Positions 3,258 to 59,735 of a stretch of 64,000 nucleotides of DNA are shown here, piece by piece. This stretch comes from Allofournierella massiliensis. Lineage in GTDB: Bacteria; Bacillota; Clostridia; Oscillospirales; Ruminococcaceae. Under the pieces are notes generated by a model. The model had not been told where the DNA came from and searched no databases. It saw only the letters and a program-made list of their open reading frames with translations. The stretch is taken from positions 62,001-126,000 of the forward strand of contig NZ_SLUM01000007.1 of assembly GCF_004345265.1 (NCBI RefSeq). Reading direction: 5' to 3'. The stretch's first letter is position 1; each line of letters opens with the position of its first letter. The position numbers and the translations under genes were made by a program.

Positions 3258-4037
3258 ATGATCTCACCGCAGGAAATCCGCAGCGTCACATTCGACAAGG
3301 TTATGCGTGGATATCGGCCGGAGGATGTGGACGCATTTTTGCAGCAGGTAGCTCAGGATATGGAGCAGCTGGCCGCGGACAACGCCGACAAGGAAAAGAA
3401 ACTGTATATCCTTGCGGAGAAGATCGAAGAGTATCGCCGCGATGAAGATAACTTGAAGACGGCTCTTCTGAATGCGCAGCGTATGGGCGAAAGCGTGATT
3501 CGGGAAGCAAAGCAGAAGGCGGAATCTCTGCTGCGCGAAGCCGGTATTCGTGCCGACACCCTGACCCGGGTGGCGCAGGAGCAGAGCGAAGAACAGCAGC
3601 AGGAGCTGGAGCGGGTCAAGGCGGAAGTGGCCCACTTCAAGAATACTCTTCTGGCGATGTACAAGCAGCACATTGAACTGATCAGCGGGCTGCCTGGCGA
3701 TGAAGAGGTTGAAGAGCCTGCTCCTGTGGAAGAGCCTGTTGTGGAACCGGTTCAGGAGGCAGAACAGCCTCAGGTTGAGGAACAGTCTGCTCCGGAAACT
3801 CCCGCTATGGAGGAGCCGAAGGAGGAGACCATGCAGTTCCCGGATCTGTCTGAACTGTATGGGGAGCAGAATTCCGAGCAGTCCGGCAATATGCTGGACA
3901 CGGTGGAGGAATTCTTTGAGGAGGATTTCTCCGCACAGACCTTCAGCCCGGAACATGCCGAGGAGCCCAAACAGGCGGAGCAGCTGGAGCAGACTCCGGC
4001 CTTCCAGGGCTTCAAGGGAATCCAGTTTACCGATTGA
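3258..4037 (+). CDS. divIVA: DivIVA-family cell-pole/septum protein
   Basis: DivIVA senses curved membrane at septa and poles. The N-terminus (SPQEIRSVTFDKVMRGYRPE, then VDAFL) is the typical membrane-binding and first coiled-coil region; strongly charged coiled coil continues to about residue 135. The C-terminal ~110 residues are an acidic Glu/Pro/Gln-rich low-complexity tail, making the protein longer (259 residues) than the Bacillus form. A GGAGGA ribosome site precedes the ATG. It ends the sepF-ylmH-divIVA trio. Confidence 0.94.
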   Translation: MISPQEIRSVTFDKVMRGYRPEDVDAFLQQVAQDMEQLAADNADKEKKLYILAEKIEEYRRDEDNLKTALLNAQRMGESVIREAKQKAESLLREAGIRADTLTRVAQEQSEEQQQELERVKAEVAHFKNTLLAMYKQHIELISGLPGDEEVEEPAPVEEPVVEPVQEAEQPQVEEQSAPETPAMEEPKEETMQFPDLSELYGEQNSEQSGNMLDTVEEFFEEDFSAQTFSPEHAEEPKQAEQLEQTPAFQGFKGIQFTD

Positions 4038-4055
4038 TTGGAATAAAAAGCTTGA

Positions 4056-4087
4056 AAAGGCGGCGTTTTGAAAAAGGCGCCGCCTTT
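4056..4087 (+). terminator. hairpin after divIVA
   Basis: AAAGGCGGCG (4056-4065) pairs with CGCCGCCTTT (4078-4087). Only three T follow, so termination is probably partial and lspA may be read through. Confidence 0.45.
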
Positions 4088-4116
4088 GCTGCGAATCGGA
4101 AGATTAAAGGAGAACA

Positions 4117-4620
4117 TTGGTTTTGACAACTGTATTGATTACTGCCGTTGTGGTGGCTCTGCTTGTGATTCTGGATCAGGCTGTAAAGCTTTGGGCAACG
4201 GCTGTGCTCGCACCGGTGGGGGCGATGCCGCTCATTCCCGGGGTGGTGGAGCTGCGTTATTATCTGAATGACGGCGCAGCCTTCAGCAGCTTCAGTGGCC
4301 AGCAGATTTTTCTGATTGCATTCACAAGTGTGGCGATGTTGGCCATTGCGGCCTATCTGCTGATCAAACGCCCGGCACGGAAACTGGAGTACTGGGCCTG
4401 GGTGCTGGTTCTGGCAGGTGGAATCGGCAACTGGATCGACCGGGTGTTCAATCACCAGGTAGTGGACTACATCAATTTTCTGTTTATCCGCTTTGCGATC
4501 TTTAACCTGGCAGACGTATTGGTCTGCACGGGAATCGGCCTGCTTGTCCTGAACCTGATTCTGGAAGAGCTGGCTGCCAAAAAGAAGGCTTCTGGAGAAA
4601 AAACGGATGGAACGATTTGA
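4117..4620 (+). CDS. lspA: lipoprotein signal peptidase (signal peptidase II)
   Basis: LspA is a membrane aspartyl protease that removes signal peptides from diacylglyceryl-modified prolipoproteins. The 167-residue protein has four hydrophobic segments and the family blocks: LDQAVK near residue 20, the NDGAAFS loop, GGIGNWIDR with the first catalytic Asp, and FNLADVLV with the second. No ATG is well placed. TTG at 4117 or 4123 follows AAGGAG (4107-4112); the second gives the better spacing (10 bases), so the true start may be 4123. It overlaps the next gene by 14 bases. Confidence 0.93.
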   Translation: MVLTTVLITAVVVALLVILDQAVKLWATAVLAPVGAMPLIPGVVELRYYLNDGAAFSSFSGQQIFLIAFTSVAMLAIAAYLLIKRPARKLEYWAWVLVLAGGIGNWIDRVFNHQVVDYINFLFIRFAIFNLADVLVCTGIGLLVLNLILEELAAKKKASGEKTDGTI

Positions 4621-5539
4621 ATTTGTGGTGCAGCCTGAGCAGGCGGGTGAACGGCTTGACCGGTTCCTGGCTGCCCAAACCGGGCTTTCCCGCAGCGCCC
4701 TGCAGCAGCTGATGGAGCAGGGCGGAGTGCTTTACGCTGGCAAGTCTGCCGCGAAAAATCAGAAAATCCAGCCCGGGATCACCATCTGTGTGGAGGTTCC
4801 CGACGCCCAGCCGCTGGATGCAGTTCCTCAAAACATCCCGGTGGATATTGTTTATGAGGATGAACATCTTCTGGTGGTGAACAAGCCCAAGGGGATGGTG
4901 GTGCATCCTGCGCCGGGCAACCCGGATGGAACGCTGGTCAATGCGTTGCTATACCATTGTGCGGGGCGGCTGTCCAGCATTGGGGGCGTGGTTCGCCCCG
5001 GTATTGTTCACCGCATCGATAAGGACACCAGTGGCCTTCTGGTGGTGGCGAAGGACGATGTGACCCATACCGGTCTGTCTGAGCAGATGGCGGTGCACAG
5101 CATTAACCGGGTTTATCAGACGGTGGTATATGGCGGGTTTGCGCAGGATGAAGGCTTTGTGGAAGCGCCCATTGGCCGCCACAAAACAGACCGGAAGAAG
5201 ATGGCGGTCACCGAGCAGAATTCCAAGTATGCCTACACTGCCTACCATGTGCTGGGGCGTTATCAGGGGTTCAGCCATCTGGAATGCCGCCTGAAAACCG
5301 GGCGTACCCATCAGATCCGGGTACACATGGCAAGCATTGGGCATCCGGTGGCGGGTGACCCGGTTTACGGGCCCAAAAATGTGATCAAGAGCCTGCAGGG
5401 GCAGTGCCTGCATGCAAAAACGCTTGGCTTTGTGCATCCGATTACCGGGCAATATCTGGAATTCGACAGTGAGCTGCCGGAGTATTTCACCCGGTTCCTG
5501 CGCTCGCTGGGAAAGGAGCAGGAAGAATGGAATCGCTGA
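4607..5539 (+). CDS. RluD-family 23S rRNA pseudouridine synthase
   Basis: A 310-residue enzyme that isomerises uridines in rRNA. The N-terminal ~65 residues are an S4 domain (ERLDRFLAAQTGLSRS), and the catalytic domain has the RluA/RluD signature GIVHRIDKDTSGLLVVAK, whose aspartate is the nucleophile, plus the TGRTHQIRVH block. The order lspA then rluD-like is very common in Bacillota (ylyB in Bacillus). Overlaps at both ends suggest one operon. Exact uridine targets cannot be told from sequence. Confidence 0.93.
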   Translation: MERFEFVVQPEQAGERLDRFLAAQTGLSRSALQQLMEQGGVLYAGKSAAKNQKIQPGITICVEVPDAQPLDAVPQNIPVDIVYEDEHLLVVNKPKGMVVHPAPGNPDGTLVNALLYHCAGRLSSIGGVVRPGIVHRIDKDTSGLLVVAKDDVTHTGLSEQMAVHSINRVYQTVVYGGFAQDEGFVEAPIGRHKTDRKKMAVTEQNSKYAYTAYHVLGRYQGFSHLECRLKTGRTHQIRVHMASIGHPVAGDPVYGPKNVIKSLQGQCLHAKTLGFVHPITGQYLEFDSELPEYFTRFLRSLGKEQEEWNR

Positions 5540-6369
5540 AAAAGTACCTTGTAGTATGCGATATGGATAACACCCTGCTCACGGCCAGAGAAGGTATTCC
5601 GGCCTGCAATCTGGCGGCGATCCGGTTGTTTATGGCCATGGGTGGCCGCTTTACGGTGGCTACCGGCCGGCCGCCGGAATCGATCCGTGCAGCGCTTCAG
5701 GGGCTGGAACTTTCCTGCCCGGCTATTGCATGTGGCGGTTCTGTGTTGTATGATATTCACGCGGACGAAGCGGTGGATCTGCATTTTCTGAATGAGGAGT
5801 CTGCCCGGCAGGCCATTGAAGAAGCAATGGCAGCCTTCCCGGATCTGGGTGTGGAAATTATGGTGGAGGAAGGCCGCCCCTATGTGGTGCGGGCCAACCA
5901 GTATACCACCGCTCACATGAAGGATGAGAAGATGGGGTGTGTACTCTGTCCGCTGGAGCAGGTGCCGCCCAATTGGGCCAAGGTTGTTTTTGCGGCACAT
6001 CCTGCCGCGTTGTTCAAGGTACAGCAGTATTTTGCAGACAAGACCTACCCCGGGCTGCAGTTTGTGCCTACGAATTTTATCTATTTCGAAATCATGCCGG
6101 AGCATGTTTCGAAAGCGTCCGCACTGAAAGAGCTTTGCCGCAGGGAACTCATCCCTATGGAATATACCGTCGTGATCGGGGATTATTTCAACGATCTGGA
6201 GCTGATGGCTGCCGCCGGATATGCGGTGGCCGTGGGCAATGCACCGCCGGAGGTGCAGAATGCAGCCGATGAGGTGGTCGCACGCTGCACAGATGGCGGT
6301 GTGGGAGAGTACCTGTATGCATTGGTGAAAAAACATGAGGGAAAACAACGGGAGGAACAGCATGGATAA
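5527..6369 (+). CDS. HAD-superfamily Cof-type hydrolase
   Basis: A 280-residue haloacid-dehalogenase-type phosphatase. Motif I is DMDNTLL (D12 nucleophile, D14 acid/base), motif II is VATGRPP, and motif IV is GDYFNDLELM with the Mg-binding acidic residues. The size and type IIB cap place it in the Cof/YidA group, whose substrates are usually small sugar or cofactor phosphates. The substrate cannot be predicted. It overlaps the preceding pseudouridine synthase gene by 13 bases and also reaches 8 bases into the transketolase gene. Confidence 0.88.
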   Translation: MESLKKYLVVCDMDNTLLTAREGIPACNLAAIRLFMAMGGRFTVATGRPPESIRAALQGLELSCPAIACGGSVLYDIHADEAVDLHFLNEESARQAIEEAMAAFPDLGVEIMVEEGRPYVVRANQYTTAHMKDEKMGCVLCPLEQVPPNWAKVVFAAHPAALFKVQQYFADKTYPGLQFVPTNFIYFEIMPEHVSKASALKELCRRELIPMEYTVVIGDYFNDLELMAAAGYAVAVGNAPPEVQNAADEVVARCTDGGVGEYLYALVKKHEGKQREEQHG

Positions 6370-8321: not shown

Positions 8322-8693
8322 ATGACAAAGGAGCGAAATACCAGGAAGGTATTGCTGTGCTGTGCGGCAGCACTGCTGTTATTGCTGACGGGGGCGCTCT
8401 GGTTCAGCGTACCGTTCTGGCAGCCGGGGTATCGAACCGTTGCATCCGAGCCCTTTGATGCACATCAGATGGAGATGGTCGAATTGAACTCGGCCGGGAT
8501 CGACGCTCTGTGTTCGCTTCCCGGTGTGGGGGAGAAAAAGGCCCGGGCGATTCTGGAATATCGGGAAGTTCATGGGCCGTTTTCCAGTTTGGATGAACTG
8601 GAGCAGGTCGACGGAATATCCACAAAAAGCATCGAGGAATGGCGTTCCAGGCTTTACATCGAAGCAGATGAGATGCAAAAAGAGGAGAGATAG
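8322..8693 (+). CDS. ComEA-like helix-hairpin-helix DNA-binding protein
   Basis: A 123-residue protein with an N-terminal membrane segment (about residues 10-27), a short linker and a C-terminal helix-hairpin-helix domain: VELNSAGIDALCSLPGVGEKKA followed by ILEYREVHGPFSSLDELEQV is the ComEA/T2SK-type motif that binds double-stranded DNA. ComEA is the surface DNA receptor for natural transformation, but this protein lacks the N-terminal SLBB-like half and has no comEC neighbour, so a competence role is uncertain. The ATG at 8322 is set 11 bases after GGAAGGA; the ATG at 8310 overlaps that site. Confidence 0.78.
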   Translation: MTKERNTRKVLLCCAAALLLLLTGALWFSVPFWQPGYRTVASEPFDAHQMEMVELNSAGIDALCSLPGVGEKKARAILEYREVHGPFSSLDELEQVDGISTKSIEEWRSRLYIEADEMQKEER

Positions 8694-8696
8694 ATC

Positions 8697-10835
8697 GTGA
8701 TGACACAAAACAACATCTACATCAACCGCGAGCTCAGCTGGCTTGATTTCAATAAGCGTGTGCTGGCGTTGAGCAAGGACAAGACGGTTCCTCTTGCGGA
8801 ACAGATGAAGTTTGCGGCAATTTACGGCAGCAATCTGGATGAGTTTTTTATGGTTCGTGTGGGTTCGCTGTATGACCGCACGCTGCTGAAAAATGAGATT
8901 ACCGAAAACAAGACCAACATGACGGCAGCTCAGCAACTGGCAGCGATTATGCCTAAAACAGCCCTGCTGCAGGATCAGTGCGACAAATACGTGGCAAAGC
9001 TGCGGGATAATCTGGCTCAGATCGGTTATCGGAAGATTGATTTTGAGAAGCTGGACAAAGAGGACGAAAAATTCTGGAAAAAGTATTTCCAGAGCGAGCT
9101 GTTTCCTGTGCTGTCTCCGCAGATTATCGATCATCGGCACCCGTTCCCGTTCCTGCGCAATCAGGAAATTTACTTATGTGCCACACTGAAGGCGAAAGGC
9201 GATGCGAGTCTGTCCTTTGGCCTGATTCCCATTGGCAGCCAGTTTGAGCGTGTGCTGTACCTGAAGAAGGATGATGCGCTGTATTACGGCCTGGTGGAAG
9301 AGCTGATCTACCACTATGCGGAGCTGGTTTTCCCGATCCTTCAGAAAAAGTGCCTGTTCCGGGTAACCCGAAACGCAGATATCGATGTGAAGGAGGGCAT
9401 GTTCGATCAGGACATTGACTACCGGCAGGTTATGAGCGAGCTGCTGAAGAAGCGCCGTAAGCTGGCTGCAGTTCGCATCCAGTTCTGGAACCAGCCCCCG
9501 CAGGAAGTGAAAAACTATCTGTGCGAAAAACTGGTTCTGCCTGCGCAGCAGTGCTTCAACCAGAGCAGCCCTCTGGATCTTTCCTACTGCTTTAAGCTCA
9601 CAGCCCGGCTGCAGAATGAAGGCCACAGCGAGCTGTTCTATGCTCCGGCAAAGCCGATGCAGGCACCTCATGGCTATAAGCTGAGCGAGGCAGTGCAGAA
9701 AAATGATGTGTTGATTGCCTACCCCTATCAGAGCATGCGCCCCTTCATCAAGATGCTGATGGCGGCGGCCTTTGATCCGGAGGTTATCTCCATCAAGATG
9801 ACTCTGTATCGTATGGCGCGGGATTCCCAGATTGTGCAGGCCCTGATTGCCGCGGCGGAAAATGGCAAAGAGGTCGTAGCGGTGGTGGAGCTGCGTGCCC
9901 GTTTTGATGAGCAGAACAACATTGACTGGTCCAAACAGCTGGAAGAGGCTGGCTGTACGGTGCTGTACGGTCTGGATGACTACAAGGTTCATTCCAAGCT
10001 GACCCTGATTACCCGCCGCACCAAGGACGGTTATCGTTACACCACCCAGATCGGTACCGGCAACTACAACGAAAAGACCAGTGAGCAGTATACCGATCTT
10101 TCCTACGTGACCACCCGCACGGAAATTGGTGAAGAAGCATCGGCTGTGTTCAACAACCTGGCGGTAGAACGGCTCACAAACAATACCAAATATCTGCTGG
10201 TGGCTCCGCTGTGCTTTAAGAGCGTTCTGCTGGAGGAGATGGATCGGGAGATTCAGAAGGCCAAGGAGGGTAAGCCTGCCCGCATTATCCTGAAGAATAA
10301 CTCGGTCAGCGATAAAAACGTGATCGAAAAGCTGTCCGAGGCGTCCTGTGCAGGCGTTTCGGTAGATATGATCGTGCGTGGCATCTGCTGCGTGACCGCA
10401 GGGGTACCCGGCAGCACAGACAATCTGCGAATCCGGAGCATTGTGGGGCGGTATCTGGAACACTCCCGTATCTACTGCTTTGGCGACGGTGACGACATGC
10501 GTGTCTATATTGCTTCCGGCGATTTCCTCACCCGCAATACCGAACGCCGGGTAGAGGTTGGCTTGAAGGTGCCGGATCGGGCACTGGCCAACAAGCTGCG
10601 CCAAATTCTGGAGCTTCAGTTGAGCGACAATGTAAATGCCCGGGAGATGAAGCCGGATGGAAGCTATTCCAAGGTAAAGGCAGAGCCGGGTGCACCTCGC
10701 GTGGACAGCCAGATGGCCCTGTATGATCTGTTCCGGGATAGCTTTGTACTGCCGGTAGCGCAGACAGTGCAGGCACCTGCGCCGAAAACTGGTCTGCTGC
10801 AAAAGATCGCCAACCTTCTGCATGGCAAGAAGTAA
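8697..10835 (+). CDS. ppk1: polyphosphate kinase 1
   Basis: PPK1 makes inorganic polyphosphate reversibly from ATP. The 712-residue protein begins with the conserved NIYINRELSWLDFNKRVL and has the phospholipase-D-like halves containing the two catalytic-site histidines in YKVHSKLTLITRR (autophosphorylated His) and LEHSRIYCFGDGDD. Length fits the family. The start is GTG at 8697 (GAGGAG 9 bases upstream) or ATG at 8700; the difference is one residue. No exopolyphosphatase gene is nearby. A strong terminator follows. Confidence 0.97.
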   Translation: MMTQNNIYINRELSWLDFNKRVLALSKDKTVPLAEQMKFAAIYGSNLDEFFMVRVGSLYDRTLLKNEITENKTNMTAAQQLAAIMPKTALLQDQCDKYVAKLRDNLAQIGYRKIDFEKLDKEDEKFWKKYFQSELFPVLSPQIIDHRHPFPFLRNQEIYLCATLKAKGDASLSFGLIPIGSQFERVLYLKKDDALYYGLVEELIYHYAELVFPILQKKCLFRVTRNADIDVKEGMFDQDIDYRQVMSELLKKRRKLAAVRIQFWNQPPQEVKNYLCEKLVLPAQQCFNQSSPLDLSYCFKLTARLQNEGHSELFYAPAKPMQAPHGYKLSEAVQKNDVLIAYPYQSMRPFIKMLMAAAFDPEVISIKMTLYRMARDSQIVQALIAAAENGKEVVAVVELRARFDEQNNIDWSKQLEEAGCTVLYGLDDYKVHSKLTLITRRTKDGYRYTTQIGTGNYNEKTSEQYTDLSYVTTRTEIGEEASAVFNNLAVERLTNNTKYLLVAPLCFKSVLLEEMDREIQKAKEGKPARIILKNNSVSDKNVIEKLSEASCAGVSVDMIVRGICCVTAGVPGSTDNLRIRSIVGRYLEHSRIYCFGDGDDMRVYIASGDFLTRNTERRVEVGLKVPDRALANKLRQILELQLSDNVNAREMKPDGSYSKVKAEPGAPRVDSQMALYDLFRDSFVLPVAQTVQAPAPKTGLLQKIANLLHGKK

Positions 10836-14135: not shown

Positions 14136-14751
14136 GACAGGGGAGGCATCCTACATTTCTCTGCTGGATCTGCAGCGTGTCATGCAGAGATCCATCAAGC
14201 GCAGCGGAATTCCGGTGTGGTACACCATGGGCTTCAACCCCCATATCTATATGACCTTTGCCAATCCTTTGCCTCTGGGACAGGAGAGTCTGGTGGAGAG
14301 CGTGGATGTGAAAACCGAGCTGGAGCAGGTACCGCTGGAGGACTGGCGGCAGGCTCTGGACCGGGTAATGCCTCTGGGCATCAAGGTGACCCGCGTCACG
14401 CTGCCCCAGTACAAGGCGGAAAAGATCAGCTTTGCGCGTTATCAGCTGCGCATGCCGCTGAGCGCACAGGCCAGTGTGGATGCATACAATCAGTTGGAAA
14501 CCGCCGTGATTCAGAAAAAGACCAAGCGCGGCCACAAGGAGATTGACCTGAAGCAGGCACTACCCCGCATTGAGACCGAACAGAAGGAGAATGAACTGCA
14601 GGCAGAGCTGCTGCTGACTGCGGGTGAGGGAAACAATCTGAATCCTTCGCTCTGGCTGAATTTCATGCAGGAGCACTGCGGGCTCAATCCCACCGACGTT
14701 TCGGTGCTGCGCACCGCACTTTTACTGGAAGATCAGACGGATTTTCGGTAA
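14107..14751 (+). CDS. radical SAM-associated protein, TIGR03936/DUF2344 family
   Basis: A 214-residue protein beginning TVRIWFTKTGEASYISLLDL, matching the DUF2344 family, which is found as a separate gene or as a fused C-terminus after TIGR03960 radical SAM proteins. The MGFNPHIYMTFANPLPLG block is characteristic. Function is unknown; a tRNA or rRNA modification role is often guessed from context. TTG at 14107 is chosen because GGGAGG is 8 bases upstream and it overlaps the previous stop by 29 bases. Confidence 0.85.
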   Translation: MTTVRIWFTKTGEASYISLLDLQRVMQRSIKRSGIPVWYTMGFNPHIYMTFANPLPLGQESLVESVDVKTELEQVPLEDWRQALDRVMPLGIKVTRVTLPQYKAEKISFARYQLRMPLSAQASVDAYNQLETAVIQKKTKRGHKEIDLKQALPRIETEQKENELQAELLLTAGEGNNLNPSLWLNFMQEHCGLNPTDVSVLRTALLLEDQTDFR

Positions 14752-31183: not shown

Positions 31184-31197
31184 TAACAAAAAAGCTC

Positions 31198-31237
31198 AGC
31201 GGCGCTGGAATGCAGAAGTTGTGGTACCAGCGCCGCT
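31198..31237 (+). terminator. hairpin after radA
   Basis: AGCGGCGCTGG (31198-31208) pairs with CCAGCGCCGCT (31227-31237). The hairpin is strong but lacks a T tract. Confidence 0.45.
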
Positions 31238-31342
31238 GCATTAAAAAATCAGATGAGAAATTTGAAAAGGCAAAACCTCGGTATGAAATGAGGAATAGGA
31301 AGAAGGTATGGGGCAGGGGCCCTTCTATTTTGTTCCATATAG

Positions 31343-31372
31343 TATTTCGCTAAATGCAAATTTAGCGAAATA
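31343..31372. repeat. perfect 13-bp inverted repeat, possible recombinase site or operator
   Basis: TATTTCGCTAAAT (31343-31355) and ATTTAGCGAAATA (31360-31372) with a 4-base centre. Read as 11-bp arms ending TAA and TTA around 8 bases, it has the general shape of a tyrosine-recombinase core site. It lies 180 bases before a tyrosine recombinase gene. No T tract follows, which argues against a terminator. Confidence 0.85.
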
Positions 31373-31507
31373 GAGGGGAGCGAAAAACAGAGGTTTCTTC
31401 TGATATGGCCTTTCTGAGCTGTCGGTATTCAAGTTGGTTCGTACAGCTCATCAGACTGATTGAGTACAAAAATCATTGATTTTATAAAAAACAAATTCAA
31501 ATGTTTC

Positions 31508-31516
31508 TGTTATAAT
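31508..31516 (+). promoter_or_regulatory. extended -10 promoter of recombinase gene
   Basis: TGTTATAAT, 35 bases upstream of the start codon, with no clear -35 box. Confidence 0.5.
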
Positions 31517-31551
31517 AATATAGTCAGTTTACTTTGGGATGTGATTATCTT

Positions 31552-32664
31552 ATGAGCACTTACATCAATCCACTTCATCCGAATCGTCATGCACCGTATG
31601 ATGATATTCCGCGGGATGTTCGGGATTTTTTGAATTATCTGGGCGCAATTCTGAACCGCTCGCCACGCACAGTTAACGGTTACTATATTGACCTGCGTAC
31701 GTTCTTTCGCTTTATGGTTCAATATCGTGGATTGGCCCCAGATACCGCTTTTGACGAGATCAATACTTCCGGGCTGGATCTGGAATTTATTGGTTCGATT
31801 ACTACGAGTGATATTTATGAATATCTGTATTTTCTGAAAAATGAACGGCTTAACGAGCCTGCAGCCCGTGCGCGTAAGCTCAGTGCCGTAAAAAGCCTGT
31901 ACCGGTTCCTTACGGTTAAAGCAAACCGGTTGAGCAATGATCCGGCGAAGGATGTATCTGTTCCTACGACCAAACGGGCTTTACCCAAGTATTTGTCGCT
32001 GGAAGAAAGTATGGAATTGTTAAAAAATATACAAAGTGACTTTTATGAACGGGATTACTGTATCATCACACTTTTTCTGAATTGCGGGATGCGTCTGGTT
32101 GAGCTTGTAGGCATCAATATGACGGACTTCAAGGAAGATACGATCCGAATTGTCGGCAAAGGCAATAAAGAGCGGCTGGTATACCTGAATCAGGCCTGTA
32201 TCCATGCACTGGAGCGGTATTGTGAAGCCCGGGCAAAATTAATGAATTTGCAGGATAAGGATGCACTTTTTGTATCTCGCAGAACTGGAAAACGCATCGG
32301 TGCACGGCGTGTGGAACAGATTGTAGAGCGTTGCCTGAAGCTGGCGGGCCTTTCCGGGAAAGGGTATTCTCCCCATAAGCTGCGTCATACCGCTGCCACA
32401 TTGATGTACCGTCACGGTAATGTGGATATGCTGGAGCTGAAGGAGATTCTGGGCCACGAGCATGTTTCCACCACCGAGATCTACACACACATCAACACGG
32501 AAAAGCTGCGCACAGCGGCCAGTTCGACTCCCCTGTCCCGTGTGGAATTTACCCAGAAAAGGGATGTGCCCATGCCGCAGGAAGATTTTGAGATGGAGGC
32601 GGAAGCGCCGGAAGTGCCGGAGCTGTTCGAAGATTTGGAGGATGAACTGTCAAGCCGGAAATAA
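31552..32664 (+). CDS. Xer-family tyrosine recombinase
   Basis: A 370-residue phage-integrase-family recombinase of XerC/XerD type. An N-terminal SAM-like DNA-binding domain (about residues 20-125) precedes the catalytic domain. The full active site is present: R181 (CGMRLVEL), K203 (VGKGNKER), H275 and R278 (SPHKLRH), H302 (LGHEHVSTTEIYTH) and Y311. An acidic tail of ~35 residues extends it beyond the usual ~300. spoIIM and xerD are also near neighbours in Bacillus. It overlaps spoIIM tail to tail by 15 bases. Whether it resolves chromosome dimers alone is not known. Confidence 0.9.
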   Translation: MSTYINPLHPNRHAPYDDIPRDVRDFLNYLGAILNRSPRTVNGYYIDLRTFFRFMVQYRGLAPDTAFDEINTSGLDLEFIGSITTSDIYEYLYFLKNERLNEPAARARKLSAVKSLYRFLTVKANRLSNDPAKDVSVPTTKRALPKYLSLEESMELLKNIQSDFYERDYCIITLFLNCGMRLVELVGINMTDFKEDTIRIVGKGNKERLVYLNQACIHALERYCEARAKLMNLQDKDALFVSRRTGKRIGARRVEQIVERCLKLAGLSGKGYSPHKLRHTAATLMYRHGNVDMLELKEILGHEHVSTTEIYTHINTEKLRTAASSTPLSRVEFTQKRDVPMPQEDFEMEAEAPEVPELFEDLEDELSSRK

Positions 32665-36834: not shown

Positions 36835-37914
36835 ATGAAAAAGTATCAAGTTGGTGTAGTAGGCGCTACCGGAATGGTCGGCCAGCGATTTGTTTCCTTA
36901 TTGGAAAATCATCCTTGGTTTGAGCTGGTGGTTGTGGCTGCTTCTCCCCGCTCTGCGGGAAAAACCTATGCGGAAGCGGTTGGAGCCCGGTGGGCGATGC
37001 CCACGCCCATGCCGCAGGATGCTGCAAAGCTGATTGTGATGGATGCTTCCCATGTGGAAGAAGTTGCCCAAAAGGTAGATTTCGTATTCTGCGCAGTGGA
37101 CATGAAAAAGGATGAGATCAAGGCTCTGGAAGAGGCTTACGCCAAGGCGGAGTGTCCGGTGATCTCCAACAACAGTGCCAACCGCTTTACCGATGATGTT
37201 CCCATGATCGTGCCGGAAATCAATGCGGATCATGCGCAGATCATTGAAGCGCAGCGCCGCCGTTTGGGAACTACCCGCGGATTCATTGCCGTGAAATCCA
37301 ACTGCTCTCTGCAGAGCTATGTTCCTGCACTCCATCCCCTGCGTGAGGAGTTTGGGCTCAAGAACGTGCTGGTTTGCACCTATCAGGCGATTTCCGGTGC
37401 GGGCAAGACCTTTGAAACCTGGCCGGAAATGGTGGATAACTGTATCCCCTACATCGGCGGTGAGGAGGAAAAGAGCGAGCAGGAGCCGCTGAAGCTGTGG
37501 GGCCATATCGAGGGCGATCACATCGTAAAAGCTGCCTCCCCTGCCATTACCGCGCAATGCCTGCGCATTCCTGTGTCTGACGGACACATGGCTGCAGTAT
37601 TCATGAGTTTTGAGAAGAAACCCACCAAGGAGCAGATTCTGGAACGGTGGGCTGCATTCCAGGGCGAAGCTCAGCGTCTGCAGCTCCCCAGCGCACCCAA
37701 GCAGTTCCTGCACTATTTCGAAGAAAATGACCGTCCGCAGACCAAGCTGGATCGTAATCTGGAGAACGGCATGGCGGTATCCATCGGTCGTCTGCGTGAA
37801 GACACCCAATACGATTACAAGTTTGTCTGCCTTTCCCACAACACCCTGCGTGGCGCTGCCGGTGGCGGCGTACTGCTGGCAGAGCTGCTGGCAGCGAAGG
37901 GCTACCTGGACTGA
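36835..37914 (+). CDS. asd: aspartate-semialdehyde dehydrogenase
   Basis: Asd (359 residues) reduces aspartyl phosphate to aspartate semialdehyde, the branch point to lysine, diaminopimelate, threonine and methionine. The NADP-binding GVVGATGMVGQRF opens the protein, the catalytic cysteine is in AVKSNCSLQSYVPAL, and a conserved histidine is in PVSDGHMAAV. It begins the asd-dapA-dapB series, which supplies meso-diaminopimelate for cell wall and dipicolinate for spores. An AAGGATG sequence serves as a weak ribosome site. Confidence 0.96.
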   Translation: MKKYQVGVVGATGMVGQRFVSLLENHPWFELVVVAASPRSAGKTYAEAVGARWAMPTPMPQDAAKLIVMDASHVEEVAQKVDFVFCAVDMKKDEIKALEEAYAKAECPVISNNSANRFTDDVPMIVPEINADHAQIIEAQRRRLGTTRGFIAVKSNCSLQSYVPALHPLREEFGLKNVLVCTYQAISGAGKTFETWPEMVDNCIPYIGGEEEKSEQEPLKLWGHIEGDHIVKAASPAITAQCLRIPVSDGHMAAVFMSFEKKPTKEQILERWAAFQGEAQRLQLPSAPKQFLHYFEENDRPQTKLDRNLENGMAVSIGRLREDTQYDYKFVCLSHNTLRGAAGGGVLLAELLAAKGYLD

Positions 37915-38951: not shown

Positions 38952-38970
38952 ACAAAGGGGAGTACGAAAA

Positions 38971-51192: not shown

Positions 51193-52117
51193 GGATTACC
51201 TCCCGTGCTGCGATACACGCCACGCCGATGGCGTTATCGCTGGAAAATTTTCCGGGAACAAAATGAGCACCGGGCAATCGCCAGGTCACATACTCCCGAA
51301 TGATCTGGCTGCTCATTACGCCACCCGCAAAGACTACGGGCAGACCTGGATGTTCTTCCAGAGCCGCTTTTACCATGCGCAGCGCAGTTTCCGCCACACA
51401 GTTCAGGCAGTAACGGCAAACATATTCCGCGGATTTCCCCTGTTCAAGGAGCCGGTTACACTGGTTTTCCAGGCCGGACAGGCTGCAGCTGCTCCCCTTT
51501 ACGCTGACTTTTGGGCGAACGGTTTCCGAACAGCGTGCAGCCAATTCACTGACCATGGCACCCGCCGGAAAGTCAAACCCCAGTTTTACCCCCACCCGAT
51601 CCACTGCCTGACCTGCGTAGAGATCACTGCTGGTACCAATGCACCGGATTGAACCATAGCCTTCACACAAAAGCAGGTCAGTGGTTCCGCCGGATACATG
51701 AAATACCAGGCAGGAGCGCTCGAACAAATTCTCTTCGCCAGTGGCAAAAAGCGCCGCGGCAATGTGACCCTGTTGGTGAGTTGATTCTACCAGCGGAATG
51801 CCACGGGCAGCAGCAAATGCCACTGCTGCGCTGCGTCCGGCAAGAAAACAGGGCATGTAGGAGCCGTCCACCGGGCGCGGGCGGGTGGAAACACCCACCG
51901 CCTGAATCCGGCTAAGATCCACCTGCTGTGCAAGCTGGCTCAAAAGCTCCGGCAGAGCCGCTGTGTGGTGAAACAGCGCATCGCTCTGACGCAGCCCCAG
52001 TTGCCCCTGTTTGACGGGCAAAAACTGCTTTTTATCGCAAACAACCTCTTTGGCACAAGAGTCGTACACGGCCAAAGAGGTTGCATAGTTGCTGGTATCG
52101 ATGCCCAGTGTGAGCAT
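51185..52117 (-). CDS. TsaD/Kae1-like ASKHA protein (M22 paralogue)
   Basis: A 310-residue ASKHA-fold protein related to TsaD/Gcp. It begins LGIDTSNYATSLAVYD, has the metal-binding HxxxH as THQQGH, a phosphate/ATP-binding FHVSGGTTDLLL and a C-terminal VVFAGGVMSS. The GVSTRPRPVDGSYMPCFLAG segment differs from true TsaD and defines a clostridial group usually annotated as M22 peptidase. The canonical tsaB/tsaE neighbours are missing, so it is probably a paralogue, function unknown. It occupies the place of folD in the Bacillus nusB-xseA order. Confidence 0.82.
   Translation of the reverse strand: MLTLGIDTSNYATSLAVYDSCAKEVVCDKKQFLPVKQGQLGLRQSDALFHHTAALPELLSQLAQQVDLSRIQAVGVSTRPRPVDGSYMPCFLAGRSAAVAFAAARGIPLVESTHQQGHIAAALFATGEENLFERSCLVFHVSGGTTDLLLCEGYGSIRCIGTSSDLYAGQAVDRVGVKLGFDFPAGAMVSELAARCSETVRPKVSVKGSSCSLSGLENQCNRLLEQGKSAEYVCRYCLNCVAETALRMVKAALEEHPGLPVVFAGGVMSSQIIREYVTWRLPGAHFVPGKFSSDNAIGVACIAAREVIHG

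Positions 52118-57749: not shown

Positions 57750-59735
<1,986 letters not shown>

Follow-up and report, generated by a model that had tools for sequence, protein, structure and literature searches.

The 28-bp palindrome at positions 31344-31371 of the window, the stretch of 64,000 nucleotides from Allofournierella massiliensis analysed here, is very probably the chromosomal dif of this bacterium, and the gene at 31552-32664 very probably encodes the Xer recombinase acting on it. This reading is based on the position of the site at the replication terminus and the GC-skew switch, on the convergence of the heptamer AGGGGAG towards it, on phage-like elements lying between site copies, and on genomes in which this protein is the lone tyrosine recombinase. 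The initial annotation had suggested a single-recombinase system whose dif-like site is linked to the gene, and the single copy, the gene linkage and the skew switch all support that suggestion.

The site, the recombinase gene and their conservation

The core lies within a perfect 13-bp inverted repeat, TATTTCGCTAAAT-GCAA-ATTTAGCGAAATA (31343-31372), with GCAA as its 4-base centre; position and perfection had been given correctly in the initial annotation. With up to three mismatches allowed, the repeat has its sole match in the window at this place (none in 100 shuffles) and is found at one place on both strands of its own 3.73-Mb, 76-contig genome (control: none). The 30-mer, whose copy number the initial annotation had proposed to determine, is therefore single-copy in its own genome. 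Further upstream, right after radA, a G+C-rich hairpin at 31190-31245 appears terminator-like by eye.

A 6-base centre between 11-bp arms (Table 1) is preferred over the 8-base spacer proposed earlier. The 11-8-11 layout was set aside because some relatives (L078, L085, L116 and L142) have the palindrome broken exactly at the bases inside the arms of the 11-6-11 reading. The inner T is nonetheless retained in 47 and the inner A in 46 of 50 sites recovered under a strict rule (see below), so that the 11-6-11 register is inferred. In all of these 50 sites a G occupies base 5 of each half-site, as it does in the arm sequence TTATG of classical dif. Within the core, bases 7 and 22 show no variation among the 50, and bases 9-11 and 18-20 form part of the strict selection rule.

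The predicted recombinase starts 180 bp downstream of the repeat, as had been noted before. Its active site, described earlier as complete, consists of R181, K203, H275, R278, H302 and Y311, all invariant in an alignment of 21 rows. The protein stays below the NCBIfam cut-offs for XerC (TIGR02224, 214.4 bits against 335.15), XerD (TIGR02225, 183.7 against 329.6), XerS (NF003462, 143.9 against 267) and XerA (NF040815, 187.5 against 220), and its profile match amounts to 90 bits with the solved XerH versus 148 with E. coli XerD. In one tree of 37 rows, calculated without XerH and without the XerA-like protein of the same genome, the clade of the recombinase stood apart from XerD-like rows and from E. 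coli XerC and XerD with a support of 100/100; E. coli XerC sits on a long branch and its placement is therefore unsure. Weaker second copies of the recombinase occur at G056:C1:2831256-2832146 and at G067:C56:6822-7772 and 8637-9608. The copy in G056 is located far from the terminus, and no dif-like core was found in its surroundings.

Table 1 Features at and around the putative dif site (positions in the window unless a contig is named)
Feature	Position	Strand	Remarks
Putative dif core, 28 bp	31344..31371	.	ATTTCGCTAAA / TGCAAA / TTTAGCGAAAT; arms 31344-31354 and 31361-31371, centre TGCAAA 31355-31360
Xer-type tyrosine recombinase, 370 aa	31552..32664	+	ATG start; R-K-H-R-H-Y complete; Phage_integrase E 1.9e-34
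AGGGGAG box by right arm	31374..31380	+	reading away from site
AGGGGAG heptamer	14139..14145	+	toward site
AGGGGAG heptamer	32528..32534	-	toward site; within xer, antisense
AGGGGAG heptamer	37536..37542	-	toward site
AGGGGAG heptamer	38956..38962	+	away from site (exception)
AGGGGAG heptamer	51492..51498	-	toward site
AGGGGAG heptamer	58485..58491	-	toward site
Box-less viral copies of the 28-bp arms	L267:6326, L269:2476, L270:5071, L272:3483, L273:1177, L274:13433, L275:3623		

Orthologues of the recombinase are present in six of seven genus genomes (79-100% identity), the seventh, which is 88% complete, giving no good match, and the repeat precedes the gene in all six. In G003 the site is retained though the DNA farther upstream is unrelated to that of the window, and in G005 and G006 (about 80% protein identity) the flanks have diverged and the 30-mer differs in its centre only. 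Beyond the genus, 121 of 148 genomes of the family and 63 of 99 of the class have the orthologue. Arms with up to three mismatches occur in 80 of the 148 family genomes, mostly as one copy, and the reversed control pattern in one genome. Many of the listed arm copies lie within 0.3 kb of the gene (e.g. G026, G063, G139 and G144), and some lie kilobases from it or on a different contig (G017, G061, G067, G076 and G105).

Under the strict rule (at least 10 of 11 bases paired, an AAA/TTT core, and a position between -520 and +60 of the matched start), an 11-6-11 palindromic site stands beside the same recombinase gene in 50 of 80 Clostridia loci. The repeat is thus retained alongside the recombinase in relatives, a point on which the initial annotation had made its proposal depend. 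Any 11-6-11 repeat of that quality was detected in 56 of the 77 loci with enough upstream DNA, one of them a run of N and a few of them other repeats, against 1.1 expected from shuffles. Perfect arms at a spacing of 6 were counted in 46 loci, odd spacings in one to three each. A looser rule recognised a site in 58 of the 73 loci of a second locus set; 15 of these 73 loci and about one fifth of the first set of 80 lack a recognised site, and a scan scoring half-sites yielded further ones, some at -545 to -1366. Between lineages the arms vary and have changed symmetrically, reading ATTTCGCTAAA, GTTTCACTAAA, ATTATACAAAA or ACTCAACAAAA, with ATTATACGAAA in Thermoanaerobacter wiegelii and ATGTCGCTAAA in Clostridium intestinale.

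Replication terminus and the AGGGGAG motif

A dnaA gene was located in 20 genomes, 13 with xer on the same contig, four with it on a different contig and three with no such xer. In ten of the 13 usable chromosomes xer lies within 20 degrees of the antipode of dnaA; the remaining three deviate by 28 degrees (G144, a contig representing part of the genome only), 29 degrees (G242) and 70 degrees (G122). In seven genomes (G056, G118, G137, G176, G189, G242 and G243) the sign of the GC skew switches no more than about 4 kb from the palindrome; in G026 the distance is about 16 kb, and the cumulative skew of the window has its maximum near 42 kb, roughly 10 kb from the site. A location at the skew switch, which the initial annotation had named as a mark of a true site, is therefore seen to within about 4 kb in seven genomes and to 10-16 kb in two. 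The skew of G118 and G137 is noisy, with the wrong sign in some 20-kb samples. G122 has unequal chromosome arms, and its skew turns between samples taken at 2.08 and 2.34 Mb; the gene is located at this switch, at 2.09 Mb, with no site found. The clear exception is G177, which carries the gene without a palindrome and has no sign change within 50 kb (three 20-kb samples). Apart from G177 and the site-less G122, a single site of about 28 bp near the replication terminus, as demanded of a dif/Xer system, was thus encountered.

When heptamers are limited to those with 40 or more leading copies, AGGGGAG shows the strongest strand bias (78:8) in 1.07 Mb sampled from five genomes and oriented from origin to terminus. 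In 19 other regions of G056 that had been held out, one stretch reading N being left out, its leading:lagging ratio was 43:5 (p 1.4e-8), and it topped 6244 heptamers, level with TACTATG (25:3). Around 62 loci, that is the sites recognised in the first locus set by the looser rule, a few of them doubtful, AGGGGAG points toward the site 136:8 within 6 kb (left 70:6, right 66:2). It ranks third of 7003 heptamers in this convergence, after GGGGAGA and GGGGGAG. Shine-Dalgarno sequences or coding bias were rejected as the source of this polarity, since coding is directed toward the site in 71.6% and the motif in 94%, and inside ORFs transcribed away from the site (crude ORF calling) AGGGGAG still points toward it 37:1. 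The known FtsK-orienting motifs fit the five sampled genomes worse than the 78:8 of AGGGGAG, with 119:51 for E. coli KOPS, GGGNAGGG, and 11:11 for B. subtilis SRS, GAGAAGGG. The convergence appears KOPS-like. A polar motif switching its direction at the site, described in PMC13342612 as a structural hallmark of the KOPS/dif system, is thus found at these 62 loci.

An additional copy of the motif, unexpected and missed in the initial annotation, is placed directly beside the site. GGGGAG starts 3 bases past one arm, so that the AGGGGAG box stands 2-3 bp outside it. With at least five of six bases matching at offsets 2-4, the box accompanies 35 of the 50 strict sites, as well as 42 of 61 looser-rule sites of the first set and 43 of 58 of the second, in none of them on both sides; controls at distant offsets matched in 0-6 of 119. 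The reverse reading is absent at offsets 0-8 of the 50 strict sites. The direction of the box agrees with that of the centre, which is purine-rich accordingly in 32 of 35 cases (one contrary, two ties). The box is absent in the rows of T. wiegelii, C. intestinale and C. liquoris, and in seven viral contigs with the same arms (Table 1), several of which are near-copies of one another. Because these viral contigs lack it, the box could mark the chromosomal site against parasitic copies.

Number of recombinases and rival explanations

Twelve genomes were hand-picked for few candidates. In ten of them, seven of which are at least 91% complete, the single Phage_integrase match is the present gene, and eight of these ten have the site. 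XerD passes the NCBIfam cut-off in three of 148 family genomes and reaches at least 288 bits in eight. Given these lone-recombinase genomes and the rarity of XerD in the family, at least some of the family's members must manage with one recombinase. The initial annotation had stated that no second xer gene was present in the window. This holds in the genome insofar as no further match to the XerD model exists at E<=1e-50; it does not hold strictly, as the genome contains 22 Phage_integrase matches. Eight other integrases among them were scanned (L006 as a shortened frame): one (L003) passes the XerA/integron-type model with 243 versus 220 bits, and none reaches the XerC, XerD or XerS cut-off.

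A two-recombinase dif, in which the present Xer and a XerD-like partner would occupy one arm each as in XerC/XerD, is unlikely. XerD-like matches at E<=1e-70 exist in 57 of 99 class genomes, XerD passes the cut-off in 27 of the 99, and in five family genomes a XerD-like gene is situated about 1-2 kb from the gene or the site (G038:C19:19324, G089:C36:45121, G103:C37:90105, G121:C8:312983 and G065:C6:1151). Against a partner stand the few family genomes with a strong XerD match, the ten hand-picked genomes without another tyrosine recombinase, and the perfectly symmetric arms at a spacing of 6 in most strict sites. As to a normal XerC/XerD pair elsewhere, which the initial annotation had held to speak against its proposal, XerC passes its cut-off in none of the 99 class genomes (a strict measure, passed by two of 14 control genomes). 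Upstream of the gene, 18 of 29 examined class loci have a site, 16 of them perfect; 15 belong to the 22 loci whose genome has a XerD-like gene and three to the seven where none was found. Since the site is no rarer in genomes with a XerD-like gene, XerD may have a partner role in the wider class, outside the window's family.

It is improbable that the repeat is instead an operator, bound by the recombinase or a repressor to regulate xer, with dimers resolved elsewhere. The usual place of the strict-set sites, -57 to -508 upstream of the matched start, would suit such a role. However, the orientation to xer varies (box on one side in 26 sites and on the other in 9), the site lies 3' of the gene in G189 and G243 and is separated from it by a 10.7-kb insert in L183, and an operator leaves the heptamer and skew switches as well as the elements at the site unexplained. 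Autoregulation may be an extra role beside the dif function but is not needed. Very improbable is an RNA hairpin with a 13-bp stem and an often GNRA-like loop (GCAA in the window) that terminates or regulates a transcript: paired arm changes would preserve an RNA stem too, but the 11-6-11 layout does not vary, the site may face either way with respect to the gene, no T-run follows the repeat in the window, and single copy, terminus position and heptamer convergence would stay unexplained.

Phage-like elements lie between copies of the site. Locus L105 has three copies in one direction, two of them imperfect (3290-5942), with a phage-type Rep (PF23343) and a short integrase between the outer copies. 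In the IMG/VR contig L271 (114-5972), an imperfect copy is located at 114 and a full site at 5945; a xer-like gene follows just past the latter, and a Rep and a weak Zot-like match lie between the copies. In L183 (2011-12724) the insert that parts site and gene lies beside xer between a partial and a full copy. Exact arms were detected in nine IMG/VR contigs; L270 and L272 encode tailed-phage packaging genes, L267, L269, L273 and L275 have reading frames in common with L272 (by eye), and in several of the box-less contigs the site has a small helix-turn-helix-like gene on one side and the large terminase gene on the other. The elements between site copies are taken as natural signs of recombination at the site. 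CTX phage makes a comparable use of dif. Another comparable case is LME-1 at the dif of Legionella (PMC9765430). Between the filled site of G017 and that of G134, nothing beyond the xer side plus 35 bases of site and flank is shared; these species are too far apart for the comparison to prove a precise insertion. PADLOC gave no match. Extra dif-like repeats with other 6-bp centres occur away from xer (G119:C4:84, G024:C35:1310, G151:C78:49423 and G003:C15:21965) and may be att sites of elements. An integrase, domesticated or mobile, that has an att site but no part in dimer resolution would fit a tyrosine recombinase with elements at its site, but is hardly credible for a gene whose orthologue is as widespread in family and class as stated above, which lies at the terminus and which is kept as the sole tyrosine recombinase in genomes of 0.7-1.2 Mb.

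Proposed function and relation to known Xer systems

If the palindrome acts as dif, each of the two identical 11-bp arms would be bound by one of two identical Xer monomers, a pair of such complexes would come together once recombination has left a chromosome dimer, and strand exchange across the 6-bp centre would yield two monomer chromosomes at division. FtsK would probably be steered toward the site on both chromosome arms by the AGGGGAG signposts. Since the arms are identical, polarity would have to come from the non-palindromic centre and the AGGGGAG box outside one arm. Tentatively, and at somewhat less than an even chance in our estimate, the dif of this clade may be a composite in which a perfectly symmetric recombinase site is joined to a built-in FtsK-reading AGGGGAG that keeps a fixed distance of 2-3 bp from one arm, on its outer side, and points away from it. 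The DNA-reading domain of FtsK docked at the box would then, as we guess, single out and favour one of two chemically identical protomers, presumably by contact with the neighbouring one, and the box would replace the asymmetry obtained elsewhere from two recombinases or unequal arms. E. coli KOPS, according to PMC2680272, loads FtsK directionally and does not stop it.

The Xer types named in the consulted parts of the literature are XerC/D, XerS, XerH, XerA and XerL (PMC3025954, PMC5357621, PMC9765430, PMC8138268, PMC2680272, PMC5993296, PMC13342612). Close in design is XerL/dif of the Legionellales, as portrayed in excerpts of PMC9765430, with one recombinase, arms of perfect dyad symmetry and a site near the terminus that is used by an integrating element. 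Unlike the present site, which usually adjoins its gene, dif and xerL are more than 400 kb apart in L. pneumophila; the arms and probably the clade differ as well, and the same excerpts mention no fixed polar box for XerL/dif. XerS/difSL of streptococci and lactococci likewise combines one recombinase with a site adjoining its gene, and in Firmicutes. In contrast to the symmetric 28 bp described here, difSL, as outlined in PMC5357621, is 31 bp long, its arms are imperfect and unequal and its centre spans 11 bp, and the present protein does not reach the XerS cut-off. One recombinase with a site near its gene is also found in XerH/difH of Helicobacter and Campylobacter, where, in the same outline, the two imperfect arms are unequal, at 11 and 10 bp (PMC5357621). 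With XerC/XerD-dif the present site has in common a length of 28 bp with two 11-bp arms around a 6-bp centre, polar motifs switching at dif and use by filamentous phages, whereas that system has two recombinases and asymmetric arms. The nearest GGGCAGGG copy of E. coli KOPS is 124 bp from dif (PMC2680272, PMC13342612), unlike AGGGGAG, one copy of which is locked to the site.

A symmetric dif with a single recombinase (XerL) and the linkage of site and gene (XerS, XerH) are hence already known. As far as searched, the clade, the combination, the AGGGGAG polarity motif and the box are new. The open literature, with subscription papers and supplements outside the scope of the search, yielded no dif, recombinase or FtsK-orienting motif for these gut Clostridia. 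PMC3025954 covered only genomes with XerCD orthologues, and some of the present sites may be listed in its tables.

For a large group of gut Clostridia, the results supply a probable dif together with its recombinase and a motif that is a candidate for orienting FtsK. The site aids in locating the terminus in draft assemblies and shows where these genomes harbour filamentous-phage-like elements. Nature has here pared the system down to a single recombinase with a symmetric site, so that the choice of the first-acting protomer could be examined by altering the seven-base box.
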